Shown in pieces: positions 7,519 to 14,307 of a stretch of DNA of 45,833 nt (position 1 is the first letter of the stretch; each line of letters starts with the position of its first letter). The DNA is from Burkholderiales bacterium 67-32 (lineage in GTDB: Bacteria > Pseudomonadota > Gammaproteobacteria > Burkholderiales > Burkholderiaceae_B). The notes under the pieces were generated by a model that saw nothing but the letters and a program-made list of their open reading frames with translations, was not told the origin of the DNA and did no database searches. Location of the stretch: the NCBI GenBank assembly GCA_001898625.1, contig MKUP01000011.1, forward strand, positions 224,840 through 270,672, given 5' to 3'. The position numbers and the translations under genes are program-made.

Positions 7519-7699
7519 AAGTTCGCTCCGCTTTAAAGATATTATTTTTATTAAGCAAATTCTTGATGTTCTTCAATGAAAACTGGGAAAATTTCTAAAA
7601 ACCTCTATTTTCATCAATCGTTATTATGATATTTTATTGACCGAGCTGCCGGCGCTTCGGCAGCCGTCGCATCATCCCAGCCATCAAAGGAGACACACC
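7519..7699. promoter_or_regulatory. AT-rich divergent regulatory region
   Basis: This 181-base gap between the GntR gene and the gene at 7700 is far richer in A+T than its surroundings. TTGATG (7563-7568) and TGAAAA (7577-7582) are mirrored by TTTTCATCAA (7608-7617), a loose inverted arrangement that could be an operator. TATTAT/TATGAT (7622-7630) could serve as a -10 for the plus-strand gene, but no good -35 is found at the right distance. Confidence 0.4.
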
Positions 7700-8581
7700 A
7701 TGGGCAAGTTTTCGATCGGGCCGCACATGCGGTTGCAGGAGTGGGTTGCCGAGGAAAAAGGCTATTTCGCCGCAGAAGGCCTGGACTACGAGTTCGTCGC
7801 CAAGGGCGGCTCGAAGAACCTGTCGGTGAAGTCGGCGGTGGAGCTGCCGCGCGACCAGATCCGCGGCGCCTACCAGACCATCGAGGAAGGCCGCACCTGC
7901 GACGTATCCAGCGCCTGCCACTGGACGGTCAACATGGCCGCCGCCGCGGGACACGGCAAGCTGTGGGCGGACGCCTATTCGGTCGCCTCCGCCGGCATCT
8001 ACGTTCCCGAGGATTCCCCCATCCGCGGGCCGGAGGACCTGGCGGGCGTGCCCATCACCGTGGGCTACCAGTCGGGCAGCCACTACGCGACGCTGCAGGC
8101 GCTGGAGGCGGTCCTGCCGCGCGACCAGATCAAGCTGCACTTCGGCGGCATGCTGATGCACCGCCTGGATCTCCTGGTCGATCGCCAGGTTCCCGCCGCC
8201 ACGATGTTCAACGCACCGATGTACTTCGCCGAACAGCTCGGATTCCGCAAGGTCATCGACTGCACGTTCATGATCGCGTCGGTGGTGCCCGGTGATGCCG
8301 CCACCGAGGACATCGCCAAGTACTTCCGCGCGCTCCAGCGCGCGCAGCAGGACATCGACCTGCGCTTCGAACGCTATACGCACTACTACAAGCGCGAGAT
8401 GCCCGAAAAGTACCGAGACCGGATGGATACCCGCCTGTACGGCCCGGGCGAACGCCTCGTCTTCCTGCCCTACACGCAGCAGATTTTCGAAGAGACCCAG
8501 CAATGGGTGAACGACTGGCAGATCTTCGACGACAAGCCCGAGCAGCGCATGGGCTATGGCGACTCGGTCCTGCACGCCTGA
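7700..8581 (+). CDS. Periplasmic-binding-protein-like (NMT1 type) protein without signal peptide
   Basis: A 293-residue protein with a type 2 solute-binding fold: MGKFSIGPHMRLQEWVAEEK and GYFAAEGLDYEFV match the start of mature NMT1/SsuA-type receptors, and LAGVPITVGYQSGSHYATLQ resembles their second-lobe hinge. The ATG at 7700 follows AAAGGAGA at good spacing, and neither this start nor the frame upstream to 7637 encodes a hydrophobic leader. The protein is therefore predicted to stay in the cytosol, or the gene may use an unusual export route. It could be an intracellular sensor or an enzyme evolved from a receptor fold, as THI5 and Pht5 relatives are. No permease adjoins it; the next plus-strand gene is the amine oxidase. 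Confidence 0.75.
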   Translation: MGKFSIGPHMRLQEWVAEEKGYFAAEGLDYEFVAKGGSKNLSVKSAVELPRDQIRGAYQTIEEGRTCDVSSACHWTVNMAAAAGHGKLWADAYSVASAGIYVPEDSPIRGPEDLAGVPITVGYQSGSHYATLQALEAVLPRDQIKLHFGGMLMHRLDLLVDRQVPAATMFNAPMYFAEQLGFRKVIDCTFMIASVVPGDAATEDIAKYFRALQRAQQDIDLRFERYTHYYKREMPEKYRDRMDTRLYGPGERLVFLPYTQQIFEETQQWVNDWQIFDDKPEQRMGYGDSVLHA

Positions 8582-8914: not shown

Positions 8915-10519
8915 ATGAGCGCATTCTTCGACAACCTGGGCCAATCCGGCCTGGGCACGACCCGCCGCGAATTCCTGGTGAAGGCCCTGGCCGCGGGCGG
9001 CAGCGGCCTGCTGCTGGCGACCATGAACGCGTGGGGCGCGGGCATCGCCTCGACCGCCGGCTCCCCGCCGGTGCTGCAAGGCGGCGGCCGCGGCAAGAAA
9101 GTGGTGATCCTGGGAGCGGGCCTGGCCGGTATGACCGCCGCCCTGGAACTGGGCAAGGCAGGCTACCAGTGCGAAGTGATCGAGGCGCGCAGCTACGCCG
9201 GCGGGCGCTGCCAGACGGCACGCCGCGGCTTCACGCTGAGCGAACTGGGCGGCGAGACCCAGGTCTGCGATTTCGATGAAGGGCAATACATCAACCACGG
9301 TCCGTGGCGCATCCCCTTCTGCCATCGCTCCACGCTGCATTACGCCGCCGAGCTGGGCGTGCCGCTAGAGCTCTACAACAACGACAACGACGCCGCCTAC
9401 ATCTATTACGAGAACGCCGGCCCGCTGTCGGGCAAGCGGCTGCGCCGCTTCGAGGTCAAGGCGGACATGCGGGGCAACGTGGACGAACTGCTGGCCAAGT
9501 CCATCCGCAACGGCCAGATGGACCAGACGCTGAGCGCCGAGGACAAGACCCTGCTGCTGGAATACCTGGTCAACGAGGGCTATCTCAACCGCGACGATCT
9601 GACTTATCGCGGCACCAACGGCCGCGGCTACAAGGTCTACCCCGGGGCCGGCAACCAGCCCGGCGTGGAATCGGACCCGCTGGGCTTCGGCGACCTGCTG
9701 AAATCCAAGCTGGGTCGCATCTACCGCTCCGTCAACGACGTCATGAGCCAGTCCACCATGCTGCAGGCGGTGGGCGGCATGGACCAGATCGCCAAGGCCT
9801 TCGAGCGCAAGGTGGGCCATCTCATCCGCTACGGCACCGAGGTCACGCAGATCCGCAACGGCAAGGACAAGGTCACGGTCCAGTGCAAGGACCTCAAGAC
9901 CGGCGCCCTGCGCACCCTGGAAGCGGACTTCTGCCTGTGCACCATTCCCATGTCCGTGCTCAAGCAGATGGATACGGACTTCTCCGCCGAGTTCAAACAG
10001 GCCATGCAGGGCAATGCCTACATGCCCACCGGCAAGATGGGCCTGCAGTTCAACCGCCGCTTCTGGGAACTCGACCACCAGATCTACGGCGGCCACATCG
10101 GCAACGACATCAAGAACATCGGCATCATCTCGCTGCCCTCCACACAGTGGCAGGGGCCGAAGGGAACGATGCTGGGCTACTACAACTTCGGCGCCACGGC
10201 CGCCGAGGTCAGCGCGCTGTCGCACAAGGAGCGGACCGAACTCGCGCTGGCCGCGGGCGAGAAAATCTTCCCCGGCGACTATCGCAAGCACTTCGCCAAG
10301 TCGTTCTCGGTCGCGTGGCATCGCGTGCAGTACAGCCTGGGCGGCTTCTCCACCTGGTCGGGCGAATCGCGCAAGACCGCCTTCCCGCGCCTGCTCGAAG
10401 GCGAAGGCCGGACCCTGCTGGCGGGCGAACACATGAGCTACCTGGGCGGCTGGATGGCCGGCGCGATCGAATCGTCGTGGCAGCAGATCGAGCGCATGCA
10501 CGCGCGCAACGCCGCCTGA
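8915..10519 (+). CDS. Tat-exported flavin monoamine oxidase family protein
   Basis: FAD-dependent amine oxidase or dehydrogenase, 534 residues. The leader holds a twin-arginine motif TTRREFLVK (Arg17-Arg18) followed by a hydrophobic run, so it is exported folded with its FAD. The Rossmann fingerprint VVILGAGLAGMTAALEL (about 64-80) with Glu90, and AGGRCQTAR, bind FAD; the C-terminal FAD motif is LLAGEHMSYLGGWMAGAIES (about 501-520). Related enzymes oxidise amines or amino acids to imines, and some (nicotine oxidoreductase NicA2) use cytochrome c instead of oxygen. The next genes, a c-type cytochrome and an exported RidA, fit such chemistry in the periplasm. GGAGGAG precedes the ATG. The substrate is unknown. 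Confidence 0.88.
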   Translation: MSAFFDNLGQSGLGTTRREFLVKALAAGGSGLLLATMNAWGAGIASTAGSPPVLQGGGRGKKVVILGAGLAGMTAALELGKAGYQCEVIEARSYAGGRCQTARRGFTLSELGGETQVCDFDEGQYINHGPWRIPFCHRSTLHYAAELGVPLELYNNDNDAAYIYYENAGPLSGKRLRRFEVKADMRGNVDELLAKSIRNGQMDQTLSAEDKTLLLEYLVNEGYLNRDDLTYRGTNGRGYKVYPGAGNQPGVESDPLGFGDLLKSKLGRIYRSVNDVMSQSTMLQAVGGMDQIAKAFERKVGHLIRYGTEVTQIRNGKDKVTVQCKDLKTGALRTLEADFCLCTIPMSVLKQMDTDFSAEFKQAMQGNAYMPTGKMGLQFNRRFWELDHQIYGGHIGNDIKNIGIISLPSTQWQGPKGTMLGYYNFGATAAEVSALSHKERTELALAAGEKIFPGDYRKHFAKSFSVAWHRVQYSLGGFSTWSGESRKTAFPRLLEGEGRTLLAGEHMSYLGGWMAGAIESSWQQIERMHARNAA

Positions 10520-10543
10520 CACCCCTTGCAAGGAACCCGACAC

Positions 10544-10936
10544 ATGATGTTCAAGCCGCTCATCGCGCTGTTCGCACTGGCCATCCCCTACGCGGCGCAG
10601 GCCCAGGAATCCGGCGCGTCGCTCTATCAGAAGAATTGCCTGGCCTGCCACCAGGCCAAGGGGCAGGGCATCCCCGGCGCCTTCCCCGCGCTGGCCGGCA
10701 GCGCCTTCGTCGCCGGCGACCGGACCGAGCTGCTGGCGACGATCCTGAAAGGACGGGGCGGCATGCCCGCCTTTGCCGGATCGATGAACGACGAGCAGAT
10801 CGCCGCCGTGGCCACTTACCTGCGCGACGACTGGAACGGCAAGGCCGGCCCGGTGCAGCCCGTCCAGGTCGCCGCCGTGCGCAAGGGCGGCAATGCCGTG
10901 CAATACAGCCAGTCGCAGGCCCGTCCCAACAACTGA
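10544..10936 (+). CDS. Class I c-type cytochrome, periplasmic
   Basis: A 130-residue exported monohaem cytochrome c. It has a Sec signal (MMFKPLIALFALAIPYAAQA) with cleavage near AQA-QE, a haem site CLACH (residues 32-36) and a likely axial Met in RGGMPAFAG (Met74), followed by the closing helix MNDEQIAAVATYLRDDW. AAGGAA precedes the ATG at 10544 by eight bases. It lies 24 bases after the amine oxidase gene and is the likely electron acceptor of that enzyme (inference), comparable to the cytochrome partner of NicA2. The C-terminal 30 residues beyond the haem fold are polar and unremarkable. Confidence 0.9.
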   Translation: MMFKPLIALFALAIPYAAQAQESGASLYQKNCLACHQAKGQGIPGAFPALAGSAFVAGDRTELLATILKGRGGMPAFAGSMNDEQIAAVATYLRDDWNGKAGPVQPVQVAAVRKGGNAVQYSQSQARPNN

Positions 10937-10966
10937 TCCCACCCCCGACGACAACAAGGAAACCCC

Positions 10967-11470
10967 ATGTCTTTCACCGCTCGCGCCGCGCTCATGATTC
11001 TTCCCTCCGCCCTCCTGCTTGCACAAGGCGTCCAGGCCCAGGACATCGTGCGCCATGCCTCGTCCAACCCGAACGCGCCGATGTCTTCGGCGGTCCAGAT
11101 CCCGCCGTCGGCCACCACCTACTACCTGAGCGGCCAGGTCCCCGCCGCCGTCAATCCCAACGCGCCGCGCGAATCGCGCGAAGCGTTCGGCGACACCGAG
11201 ACCCAGACCATCAGCGTGCTCGAACGCATCGAGGCCACCTTGAAGCCCCTGGGCCTGGGCATGAAGGACGTCGTCAAGATGCAGGTGTTCCTGGTGGCCG
11301 ATCCGCAGAAGAACAACAAGATGGATTTCCGCGGCTTCATGGCCGGCTACGGCAAGTTCCTCGGCAAGACCCAGCCCAACCTGCCCGCGCGTTCGGTGAT
11401 GCAGGTGGCGCGCCTGGCCAACGACGGCTGGCTGGTCGAGATCGAGGTCATCGCCGCCAAGGCTCACTGA
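10967..11470 (+). CDS. Exported RidA-family (YjgF) imine deaminase
   Basis: A RidA/YjgF-fold protein of 167 residues. Family members hydrolyse reactive imines or enamines to ketones and ammonia. An N-terminal Sec signal (MSFTARAALMILPSALLLAQ ending GVQA) precedes the domain, which is unusual because classical RidA is cytosolic. The domain starts near residue 37 and retains the catalytic Arg (NLPARSVMQVARL, Arg142) and the ending WLVEIEVIAAKA. The position directly after the exported amine oxidase and cytochrome suggests that it hydrolyses the imine product in the periplasm (inference). CAAGGAAAC precedes the ATG. Confidence 0.88.
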   Translation: MSFTARAALMILPSALLLAQGVQAQDIVRHASSNPNAPMSSAVQIPPSATTYYLSGQVPAAVNPNAPRESREAFGDTETQTISVLERIEATLKPLGLGMKDVVKMQVFLVADPQKNNKMDFRGFMAGYGKFLGKTQPNLPARSVMQVARLANDGWLVEIEVIAAKAH

Positions 11471-11646: not shown

Positions 11647-12723
11647 ATGTACCAGAGGATACTCATCGCGGGGACCGCGGCACTTCTATCCACGCAGGTC
11701 CACGCGCAGTCCAGCGTGACCATCTACGGCGTCGCCGACGTCAGCATCCGATATCTCACCCACGCCGACCGCGCCACCGGACGCAGCAAGCTGTCCATGG
11801 AGAACGGCGCCGTCTCGAACAGCCGCTGGGGATTCCGCGGCGTGGAGGACCTGGGCAACGGCCTGTCCGCCCTCTTCAACCTGGAAGGCGGCATGAACCT
11901 GGACGACGGCACCCAGTCGACCGCCGGCAAGATCTTCAACCGGCAATCGTTCATGGGCCTGAGCAGCCGCACCGCCGGCACGCTGACCGTCGGCCTGCAG
12001 AACAATCCGCTGTTCGACTTCATGGTCGGCCCCTACGACCCCATGACCCTGGGCAACTACAGCCAGAACTCCTGGATGGGCACGGTGTTCAGCGTGGCTG
12101 GCCGGCGCGGCAAGGACAACTCGATCAAGTACACGAACACTTTCGGCGATTTCCGGGTCGCCGCGTTCTACGGCATGGGCGAACAGCCCGACAACCATCG
12201 CAAGAACGAGGCCTGGAGCGGCACGGTTTCCTACACGAAGGGCCCCTTCAGCACCGGCGGCGGCTTCGTCCTCACGCATGACGCCCTGGGCAACAAGCAG
12301 ACGGTCTACAACCTGAACCTGCGCTACAAACTCGGGCCCGCCACGCTGTTCCTGGGCCACTTCAACAGCAAGGACCACACGGGCTTCGTCGACGCGTTCC
12401 TGAACGGCGGCGCCACGCCCAGCGCCACGGCCCCGCGCCGCGACAACGCCTGGTTCACGGGCCTTACCTACGACGTCATGCCGTCGCTCAAGCTGACCAG
12501 CGCTTTCTACTATGACCGCAGCAAGAACGTGCGCGCGGTCCAGGGGGACGCCGGCGAGGGCACGCGCTACGCGCTGGTGCTGCTGGCCGACTACTACCTG
12601 TCGCGGCGCACGACGCTGTACGCCACCGTCGACTACAACAAGGTCAAGGATGCTGCGCGCGTCGACATTCCCGGCGGGAACAGTCAAACCGGCGTCGCGA
12701 TCGGCCTGCGCCATCGTTTCTGA
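11647..12723 (+). CDS. Gram-negative trimeric porin (Porin_4 type)
   Basis: Outer-membrane general diffusion porin of 358 residues. The signal peptide ends STQVHA-QS; the mature start SSVTIYGVADVSIRYL and the terminal GVAIGLRHRF, ending in Phe as the BAM complex requires, are typical of the betaproteobacterial porin family. Internal motifs include NSRWGFRGVEDLGNGLSALF and NRQSFMGLSS. GAGGAG precedes the ATG. Its place between the amine-oxidation genes and their regulator suggests it admits the substrate into the periplasm, but these porins are broadly permissive. Confidence 0.93.
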   Translation: MYQRILIAGTAALLSTQVHAQSSVTIYGVADVSIRYLTHADRATGRSKLSMENGAVSNSRWGFRGVEDLGNGLSALFNLEGGMNLDDGTQSTAGKIFNRQSFMGLSSRTAGTLTVGLQNNPLFDFMVGPYDPMTLGNYSQNSWMGTVFSVAGRRGKDNSIKYTNTFGDFRVAAFYGMGEQPDNHRKNEAWSGTVSYTKGPFSTGGGFVLTHDALGNKQTVYNLNLRYKLGPATLFLGHFNSKDHTGFVDAFLNGGATPSATAPRRDNAWFTGLTYDVMPSLKLTSAFYYDRSKNVRAVQGDAGEGTRYALVLLADYYLSRRTTLYATVDYNKVKDAARVDIPGGNSQTGVAIGLRHRF

Positions 12724-12782
12724 TAGACATCGTGACGGGGTCCAGTAAACTCGCGAAGATCGAGCACAGCCACTTGGGAACG

Positions 12783-13445
12783 ATGTCGACTCGCGCCACC
12801 GACCGCCGTGCCGCCCAGCCCCGCCAGGCGGCGGCGCGTGACAAGGCCAAAGCCAGGGACAAGGACTCCGCCTCGGTGGACGAGACCTTCGTCTGGATAG
12901 GCGGGCAGATCCGCAGCTTGCGCAAGGCGCGCAAGCTTTCGCTGGACGAGCTCAGCCGCGCGACCGGCTTTTCCATCGGCTATCTCAGCCAGATGGAGCG
13001 CGGCCTGGCCAAGACCTCGATCGGTTTCCTGAAGAAGGTCAGCCTCGCGCTGGACGTGCCGCTGGGCTGGTTCTTTCCCAGTGGCCAGCCCAGCGATCCC
13101 ACCGACCGCGGCGTGGTCGTCCGCGCCTCGCGCAGGCGCCAGTTGACCTCGAACGCCGGCGTGTCCGACTTCCTGTTGTCGGCCAATCTGGATGGCCAGC
13201 TCAAGCTGTTCTATTCGGTGCTGGAACCCGGCGCGCGCAGCGGCGACGCCTACGCGCACCAGGGCGAGGAAGGCGGCTACGTGGTCAGCGGCAGCCTGGA
13301 CCTATGGGTGGGGGACGATCATTTCGTCGTCAACGCGGGCGACAGCTTCAGCTATCCCAGCACGACGCCGCACCGCCACGCCAACCACGGACGCGATGCC
13401 GTGGTCATCATCTGGGCCGTTTCCGCCGGTTCGGGCAAAGGGTAA
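12783..13445 (+). CDS. XRE-family regulator with C-terminal cupin
   Basis: A 220-residue regulator: a basic, disordered N-terminus, an HTH_3 domain (about 40-95: IRSLRKARKLSLDELSRATG, then FSIGYLSQMERG) and a cupin sensor (about 140-212: LEPGARSGDAYAHQGEEGGY through SYPSTTPHRHANH). The architecture is that of PuuR-like and SutR-like regulators; PuuR governs putrescine use, which fits an amine-oxidation neighbourhood. I chose the ATG at 12783, preceded by TGGGAA; a GTG at 12732 nine bases after the porin stop would add 17 residues. It is likely the regulator of the 8.9-12.7 kb genes. Confidence 0.88.
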   Translation: MSTRATDRRAAQPRQAAARDKAKARDKDSASVDETFVWIGGQIRSLRKARKLSLDELSRATGFSIGYLSQMERGLAKTSIGFLKKVSLALDVPLGWFFPSGQPSDPTDRGVVVRASRRRQLTSNAGVSDFLLSANLDGQLKLFYSVLEPGARSGDAYAHQGEEGGYVVSGSLDLWVGDDHFVVNAGDSFSYPSTTPHRHANHGRDAVVIIWAVSAGSGKG

Positions 13446-13478: not shown

Positions 13479-14237
13479 TCAAAGGAACTTGGTCGGCCAG
13501 ATGATCGTGCGCCACATGTGCGCCACCGGGCTGCCGTCAAAGCCCAGGCCTTCCTTGGGCTGCTTGAAGTTGCGGCCGATGATGTCGATGAAGTCGTCCA
13601 TGCTGACCACCGCGTTCGGATCGAACGAATAGATGTCGTTCAGCGTGATCAGCCGGCTCGTCATGTACCACTTGTGGTTGCGCGCTTCCTGATAGGCCTG
13701 CTCGACATAGGGTTCGGGCCGGTAGTCTTCGCCGAAGTAGCGGATGTAGGCATCGGGGTAGGCATAGCCCACGGACTCGTCGGGGAAGAAGCGCAGCGCC
13801 TGGTGGTAGCGGATGGCCCAGCTCACTTCCTCGTCCACGTAGGGTTCGAGCAATTGCGCGCCCCAGTAGCCGTGGTCGACGCGGATGAAGCCGGACACGG
13901 CGATGTCGTGCAGCAGACAGGCCAGCACGACCTTCTCGCTGTGCCCGCCCTTGAGCGCATGGGTGGCGCTTTGCAGCAGGTGATTGGCCGGCGCGAAGCG
14001 GTACTTGAAGAAGTCCAGCAGCGTGGGTTGCTCCGGCATCGCGGGCAGGCGCGGATCGTCGCCCATCATGAAATGCTTGGGTTTGCCTTGGTCGCGCGCC
14101 GCGCCTTGCGGCATGATGGGTTGTCTCGGGTCTTTCTCGCCCGAGGTGAACAGCACGGACTTCACCACCTTGCGATCGAGTTCCTCGATCATCTGGTGTT
14201 CGAGCGCGTCCGCGCGCTGGGACAGGGTCATTGCCAT
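13479..14237 (-). CDS. HD-domain protein with a di-iron oxygenase-like ligand set
   Basis: A 252-residue HD-superfamily protein. The metal pattern reads His86 (APANHLLQ), His110-Asp111 (CLLHDIA), His122 (RVDHGYWGAQLLEP), His145 (IRYHQALRF) and Asp201 (LNDIYSF), i.e. H...HD...H...H...D. That six-ligand set is the one used by HD-domain mixed-valent di-iron oxygenases (PhnZ, TmpB, MIOX relatives) as well as by some two-metal phosphohydrolases, so either activity is possible. No other domain is present and no signal peptide. The ATG at 14237 follows AAGGACG. It is convergent with the XRE gene and divergent from the GntR gene at 14433. Confidence 0.8.
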   Translation of the reverse strand: MAMTLSQRADALEHQMIEELDRKVVKSVLFTSGEKDPRQPIMPQGAARDQGKPKHFMMGDDPRLPAMPEQPTLLDFFKYRFAPANHLLQSATHALKGGHSEKVVLACLLHDIAVSGFIRVDHGYWGAQLLEPYVDEEVSWAIRYHQALRFFPDESVGYAYPDAYIRYFGEDYRPEPYVEQAYQEARNHKWYMTSRLITLNDIYSFDPNAVVSMDDFIDIIGRNFKQPKEGLGFDGSPVAHMWRTIIWPTKFL

Positions 14238-14307
14238 GATTGCGTCCTTAGCAGGTACTGGATTTCCGCGCCGCGGCCCTTGCATGACGATAGGCCCCAG
14301 CTAATTA

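Follow-up and report, generated by a model that had tools for sequence, protein, structure and literature searches.

A lao-cccA-ridA type gene trio with a predicted exported Rid3-type protein in a Burkholderiales genome

A stretch of 45,833 nucleotides from Burkholderiales bacterium 67-32 (contig MKUP01000011.1, positions 224,840 to 270,672 of the forward strand; hereafter the window) carries three adjacent genes for a flavin-dependent oxidase, a class I cytochrome c and a Rid-type protein. We think it reasonably probable that the trio is a unit of the lao-cccA-ridA type, oxidizing L-amino acids outside the cytoplasm. We also lean slightly towards a broader view, in which the Rid3 branch linked to such oxidases is dedicated to deaminating imines outside the cytoplasm and is bound to L-amino acid oxidoreductases exported by the twin-arginine translocation (Tat) route in Gram-negative bacteria, Gram-positive bacteria and cyanobacteria, with or without a cytochrome, and following the oxidase in its location. 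The reading of the trio rests on protein families, signal-like starts, a haem site, key residues, gene order and a conserved neighbourhood, all taken from sequence; from these we infer the substrate class, the electron acceptor, the location and imine hydrolysis in vivo.

In the proposed pathway, the flavoprotein would fold in the cytoplasm, leave through the Tat system and take a hydride from the alpha carbon of an amino acid, giving a 2-imino acid and reduced flavin adenine dinucleotide (FAD). Cytochrome c, exported by the Sec route and loaded with haem outside, would accept the electrons one by one and pass them to a terminal oxidase. The Rid3-type protein, reaching that compartment by Sec, would hydrolyse the 2-imino acid to a 2-keto acid and ammonium.

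The three genes lie on one strand in the order oxidase-cytochrome-Rid, and the gaps of 24 and 30 bases between them only suggest co-transcription. A first-pass annotation, made by a model from the letters and open reading frames of this DNA, had described three adjacent, co-directional genes with Tat and Sec signals, a CLACH haem site, an FAD motif and a conserved Rid arginine, and all of these are present. Each gene is an open reading frame. Residues 16-21 of the oxidase read TRREFL, followed by an uncharged stretch, and its FAD motif is GAGLAG. The cytochrome frame begins with an ATG at 10544 or 10547, ends with a stop at 10936 and holds the Met of GMPAF after CLACH; the Rid signal sequence is MSFTARAALMILPSALLLAQGVQA, and Arg142 sits in PARS.

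Units of this kind are already known. In the lao-cccA-ridA cluster of Gluconacetobacter diazotrophicus (GDI2456-2454), a Tn5 insertion in lao abolishes indole-3-acetic acid (IAA), and the mutant tested has less transcript of each of the three genes. The authors propose joint action of the products and a Tat-exported periplasmic L-amino acid oxidase (LAAO), recall a periplasmic LAAO-RidA complex in Chlamydomonas, and cite conservation of the cluster in Caulobacter crescentus and Xanthomonas (PMC5053998). The window trio has the same three genes in order on a single strand, a Tat signal on the oxidase and a suggested periplasmic site; it differs in that the published account focuses on IAA and, in 12 of 13 places of its text covered here, leaves a RidA signal unmentioned, and the likeness was judged from the published description. 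We find the identical gene order in Caulobacter vibrioides OR37 (L142; L and G numbers denote loci and genomes). In Chlamydomonas, LAO1 and LAO2/RIDA are drawn in the periplasm (PMC10805672); this too pairs an extracytoplasmic LAAO with a RidA partner but, unlike the window, is eukaryotic, and its cluster consists of LAO1 and a RidA gene with no cytochrome named. Because both systems were already described, the novelty that the first-pass annotation saw in the trio does not hold; export of the bacterial Rid partner itself is taken up below. In short, the observation is confirmed, the interpretation first given to it is partly supported, and the kind of unit is known.

The oxidase and its electron acceptor

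Among solved structures, the closest chain to the oxidase is the L-amino acid oxidase 2jae (4e-87, over residues 61-532), followed by vertebrate-type and snake LAAOs at 1.4e-26 and weaker. Residues R132 and Y423, which do not vary in any of the 17 sequences aligned, line up with an Arg and a Tyr of the LAAOs. We take them to correspond to Arg90 and Tyr372 of the snake enzyme, and probably to Arg84 and Tyr371 of the Rhodococcus enzyme. In the Calloselasma (snake) enzyme, Arg90 and Tyr372 hold the substrate carboxylate (PMC6149928). Because 2jae is by far the closest solved relative and both presumed carboxylate-binding residues are invariant, the enzyme groups with the LAAOs and is read as an L-amino acid oxidoreductase rather than a general amine oxidase.

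What would accept the electrons? In the bacterial cases tested, members of this superfamily that carry a Tat signal and are encoded beside a cytochrome c (CytC) gene proved to be dehydrogenases using that cytochrome (PMC12224317). The window oxidase has both features, the genomic signature of a cytochrome-c-using dehydrogenase of the superfamily (FAO). Since this signature predicted dehydrogenases in that study, the window oxidase is, by analogy, probably a dehydrogenase with the adjacent cytochrome c as acceptor, as the first-pass annotation had supposed. The likeness to NicA2/Pnao-CycN lies in a Tat flavoprotein of the same superfamily beside a Sec cytochrome c; those systems serve nicotine breakdown, whereas the window oxidase groups with the LAAOs. 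The term 'RidA' does not occur in the text of PMC12224317.

We surveyed 131 distinct oxidase loci: 19 from the family, 30 from the phylum (31 oxidase places, one without a locus), 3 from the order and 80 named loci whose phyla we assigned from genus names, with L009 common to the family and phylum samples. The set keeps near relatives, and the Fisher values given below ignore common descent. By a lenient RR/KR motif rule, a Tat-type start is present in 128 of 132 set entries (family, 18/19; phylum, 30/30; order, 3/3; named, 77/80; L009 entered twice), a count that includes L050 and L052, whose Tat core looks spoiled. A cytochrome gene follows the oxidase at 17 of the 19 family loci, 19 of the 30 phylum loci, 2 of the 3 order loci and 57 of the 80 named loci. 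The rule behind these counts is incomplete: at L037, L041 and L044 it passed over frames with a haem motif downstream of the oxidase, and L139 and L176 may hold a cytochrome as well. The oxidase of L027 contains a stop, which misplaces the downstream stretch of that locus. At L144, L151, L161, L165 and L177, a second oxidase copy occurs within a few kb of the first.

The Rid protein and its export

The nearest solved chains to the window Rid are 9bkc (PFL1385; 6.1e-29, 104 bits) and 9bka (PSPTO3006; 1.1e-26, 96.8 bits), with the third-nearest at 3.4e-9 and 39.9 bits. PFL1385 and PSPTO3006 are Rid3 proteins, and both lower the trapping of imines made by an L-amino acid oxidase (PMC5619798). The Arg needed for imine hydrolysis is kept as Arg142 and is visible also in the tails of Rid relatives. 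Rid3 proteins are said to have Ile in place of RidA Tyr17 (PMC4433059); the window Rid differs in having Met there (APMSSAV), and many of its relatives have Ile (FPIS, SPIS), as read by eye. The window Rid is nearest to Rid3 and a predicted imine deaminase, which is consistent with the imine-hydrolysing type that the first-pass annotation assigned to it. Clusters in which genes for FAD amine oxidases lie with RidA or, in some cases, Rid3 genes were noted in 2015 (PMC4433059), and the Rid of a chitin oxidation pathway placed in the cytoplasm is a 127-amino-acid protein (PMC9537276). The window's genome (6.66 Mb in 34 contigs) has 35 places that match PF01042, 34 of them over the curated cut-off and the window's Rid included, apparently a large number.

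We scored export signals by a crude rule of our own rather than by SignalP, looking for a charged start, an uncharged core and small residues at the cut, taking the best of several starts and counting a signal as present at a score of at least 3. A Rid partner was counted if it lay on the same strand no more than 1.5 kb downstream of the oxidase. Such a partner is present at 70 of the 131 distinct loci (6 family, 21 phylum, 1 order and 43 named, with L009 counted once), and 67 of these 70 Rid proteins reach the signal score. The three exceptions are L050 and L052, which have no signal, and L137, which has a signal-like start without charge. Approached from the Rid side, by a phylum search with 25 places, the signal is present in 23, the two others being the L050 and L052 places, and an oxidase lies within 1.5 kb on either side in 22; at L197, L200 and L208 the oxidase is about 3.4-4.1 kb off.

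The window's genome has 34 further Rid-type genes, which we used as a control and read through a start window slightly different from that of the survey loci. Only three reach the signal score (L070, L088 and L098; Fisher 1e-19), and L070, kept in the count, does so via an unlikely upstream start; one control gene (L102) scores under the family cut-off. A second control consists of six close same-genus Rid relatives (L063-L068) with no oxidase found within 1.5 kb on either side, and none of the six has a signal. The Rid signal is therefore found where the oxidase is, though Rid proteins of this type can also occur without it.

Export of the two proteins can also be followed where it appears to have been lost. 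We call the genus of G543, which holds L050, Pseudomonas-like because its Rid matches PSPTO3006. An oxidase is present in 35 of its 149 genomes, and 35 distinct loci were read, with a second, more distant copy in G1077 left out. At 15 loci Rid has no signal, and all 14 readable oxidase starts among these carry an acidic residue after AVGG in the Tat core. At the other 20 loci Rid has a signal (19 by score and L240 by eye), and none of 17 readable oxidase starts has an acidic residue at that spot, although one (L262) has Arg there. We built a tree of 110 Rid domains that leaves out the signal region and does not contain L063-L068. The 16 signal-less rows of the clade group together in it with modest support (SH-aLRT 85), and the signal label needs two changes in all, the second being L118. 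These sequences suggest that export of the oxidase and export of Rid were given up jointly, in a single event. By eye, PFL1385 looks like a member of the signal-bearing group, whereas PSPTO3006 is more like the signal-less one.

Regular export of Rid beside an exported oxidase seems to be largely unremarked. Full-text literature searches, with most subscription papers outside their reach, returned no statement on export of the bacterial Rid partner. No word beginning 'signal' occurs in PMC4433059 or PMC5619798, and in PMC5053998, across 12 of the 13 places covered, 'signal peptide' appears only in the methods and for the LAAO.

Some further observations concern Rid proteins more widely. At L033, L035, L038, L043 and L169, the Rid signal region ends in Cys (for example LLNVTGC and LSTGC), so that these proteins are perhaps membrane-anchored lipoproteins. 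The relatives L063-L068 (40-53% identity to the window Rid) adjoin a nitroreductase-like gene and, in some cases, an aldehyde-dehydrogenase-like gene, as judged by eye. Finally, two other places of the window's genome, L103:3920-5494 (some 25 kb ahead of the window) and L104:3098-5400, each have a signal-bearing Rid-type protein beside an exported-looking Amidohydro_2 amidohydrolase. Such pairs may represent another type of exported Rid unit. Among six relatives of the L103 Rid, two have a signal and none has an amidohydrolase within 1.5 kb.

Incomplete units and alternative readings

Across the phylum sample of 398 genomes (cut-offs of E 1e-60 for the oxidase and E 1e-18 for Rid), 27 genomes have the oxidase and 24 have a close Rid relative, and all 24 are among those 27. 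With the window's own genome removed the two-way table reads 23, 0, 3 and 371, and Fisher's test gives 2e-34 with relatedness ignored. The oxidase itself is present in 19 of 200 family genomes and 6 of 399 order genomes. The phylum sample suggested that this Rid3 always travels with the oxidase, an idea that we dropped on finding the same-genus relatives L063-L068 away from any oxidase. Within the window's genus (Rid cut-off E 1e-20), 8 of 11 genomes have a close Rid relative and only 3 have the oxidase (G000, which is the window's genome, G166 and G190); L063-L068 include a second copy in G190. Co-occurrence, the check put forward by the first-pass annotation, is thus beyond chance in the phylum sample but fails inside the window's own genus.

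Several observations weigh against a fixed trio acting through cytochrome c outside the cytoplasm. The five remaining Rid-bearing genomes of the genus have no oxidase match even at E 1e-15. Conversely, 11 of the 17 cytochrome-bearing family loci lack Rid, and neither partner is present at 2 of 19 family, 5 of 30 phylum and 10 of 80 named loci, as counted by the incomplete cytochrome rule. The trio is clearly not obligatory. Moreover, the joint change in the Pseudomonas-like clade amounts to one event on the tree, and imino acids also hydrolyse unaided, so that the need for Rid outside the cytoplasm is not obvious. Lastly, at 12 named loci Rid accompanies the oxidase with no detected cytochrome. 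Seven of these are Bacillota (L143, L147, L148, L152, L155, L158 and L160), which are all the Bacillota of the named set; two are cyanobacteria (L150 and L163), a third cyanobacterium (L164) having neither partner; and the others are a PVC bacterium, a member of the Gemmatimonadaceae and the betaproteobacterium L176, where there is room for a missed cytochrome. Because of these 12 loci, electrons need not reach cytochrome c everywhere, and the cytochrome is optional to the oxidase-Rid pair.

The same loci, with all seven Bacillota among them, are what would be expected if the enzyme were simply an exported oxidase of the ordinary sort, consuming O2 and producing H2O2, and the adjacent cytochrome served to remove peroxide or had some other use. 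Known LAAOs do use O2, as a family and as described in PMC5053998. Considering that a cytochrome gene follows the oxidase at most of the family, phylum and named loci, in the counts given above, and that the Tat-CytC pairing predicted dehydrogenases in PMC12224317, we regard this explanation as unlikely for the window and prefer a cytochrome-dependent dehydrogenase.

A similarly doubtful proposal is that Rid acts mainly as a structural partner of the oxidase rather than as a catalyst, in the manner of the M-beta subunit of the Chlamydomonas periplasmic complex. The LAAO-RidA complex discussed in PMC5053998 and the seemingly joint shift of oxidase and Rid between compartments would fit such a role, but the catalytic Arg is kept in the window Rid and visible in its relatives, and the Rid3 relatives are active imine deaminases (PMC5619798). 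We therefore continue to favour catalysis by Rid.

Could the purpose of the unit be the release of keto acids, such as indole-pyruvate on the way to the plant hormone IAA, rather than a gain of energy or nitrogen? The loss of IAA on insertion of Tn5 into G. diazotrophicus lao (PMC5053998) argues for this, while the occurrence of the unit in many unrelated bacteria argues against it, and no link to IAA was noticed in about 5.5-15.5 kb of the window, where no search was aimed at one. It seems somewhat less likely than the two preceding alternatives, and it does not exclude oxidation of L-amino acids outside the cytoplasm, with which it is compatible.

The first-pass annotation had proposed oxidation of an amine and pointed to NicA2-type oxidases as users of cytochrome c. 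Chains titled only 'Amine oxidase', which we take to be NicA2, match the oxidase at 4.7e-07 and weaker and over residues 13-113 only, and the NicA2-type identity was dropped on account of this weak and partial match. A substrate that is an amine other than an amino acid is very improbable: the Pfam Amino_oxidase family does cover amine oxidases generally, but the match to 2jae is far stronger and the presumed carboxylate-binding Arg and Tyr are invariant.

Neighbouring genes and implications

Table 1. Features of the trio and its downstream neighbours (positions in the window)
Feature	Positions	Strand	Basis
Predicted Tat-exported FAD L-amino acid oxidoreductase (lao-like), 534 aa	8915..10519	+	Pfam PF01593 Amino_oxidase, 9e-49
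Twin-arginine signal region (T16-R17-R18-E-F-L and uncharged core)	8960..9040	+	Sequence
Class I cytochrome c of about 130 aa, bearing a Sec signal	10544..10936	+	Pfam PF13442 Cytochrome_CBB3, 3.8e-17
Haem attachment site CLACH	10637..10651	+	Sequence
Predicted exported Rid3-type imine deaminase, 167 aa, Arg142 kept	10967..11470	+	PF01042, 4.8e-19
Sec signal peptide of Rid	10967..11038	+	Score 4.12 on our own rule
Neighbouring porin, not conserved with the unit	11647..12723	+	Pfam Porin_4, 1e-48
XRE-cupin, neighbour, possible local regulator	12732..13445	+	Pfam Cupin_2 and HTH_3

The porin and XRE-cupin genes with which the first-pass annotation completed the locus do exist, but their membership of the unit is not supported, and the label PuuR-like for the regulator is not borne out, its score against the NCBIfam PuuR model being 61.5 bits for a cut-off of 211. 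Another neighbour, at 7655-8581 before the oxidase, encodes an NMT1-like substrate-binding protein, seemingly without a signal peptide, and lies near FCD-type regulator and ABC transporter genes on the opposite strand. In a comparison of the 80 named oxidase loci (up to 5 kb per side, some shortened by contig ends), the porin, the XRE-cupin regulator and the NMT1-like gene had no homologue at E 1e-15 at any locus, and all three were dropped as parts of the unit. Two near-identical loci from the same genus that were checked do keep all three next to the trio, and these genes may serve the unit locally without defining it. Farther on, 13479-14285 on the minus strand encodes an HD-domain protein that scores weakly, with 26.3 of 214.6 bits, against a model for an HD oxygenase of phosphonate degradation. 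At L103:8381-9836, open frames consist of repeats such as SSPLTRGT, FIPAHAGNT and HPRSRGEH, presumably a translated CRISPR repeat array.

The trio points to a way, recognizable from genome sequence, in which bacteria may draw electrons and ammonium from amino acids that they do not import. The usual explanation of Rid proteins is that they protect enzymes of the cytoplasm that depend on pyridoxal phosphate, and their near-regular export beside the oxidase raises a question: what does an imine harm outside the cytoplasm, or does Rid simply speed the oxidase? If the oxidase-linked Rid3 proteins are indeed a dedicated extracytoplasmic branch, imine chemistry would matter outside the cytoplasm as well, and oxidase and Rid would act as one unit.

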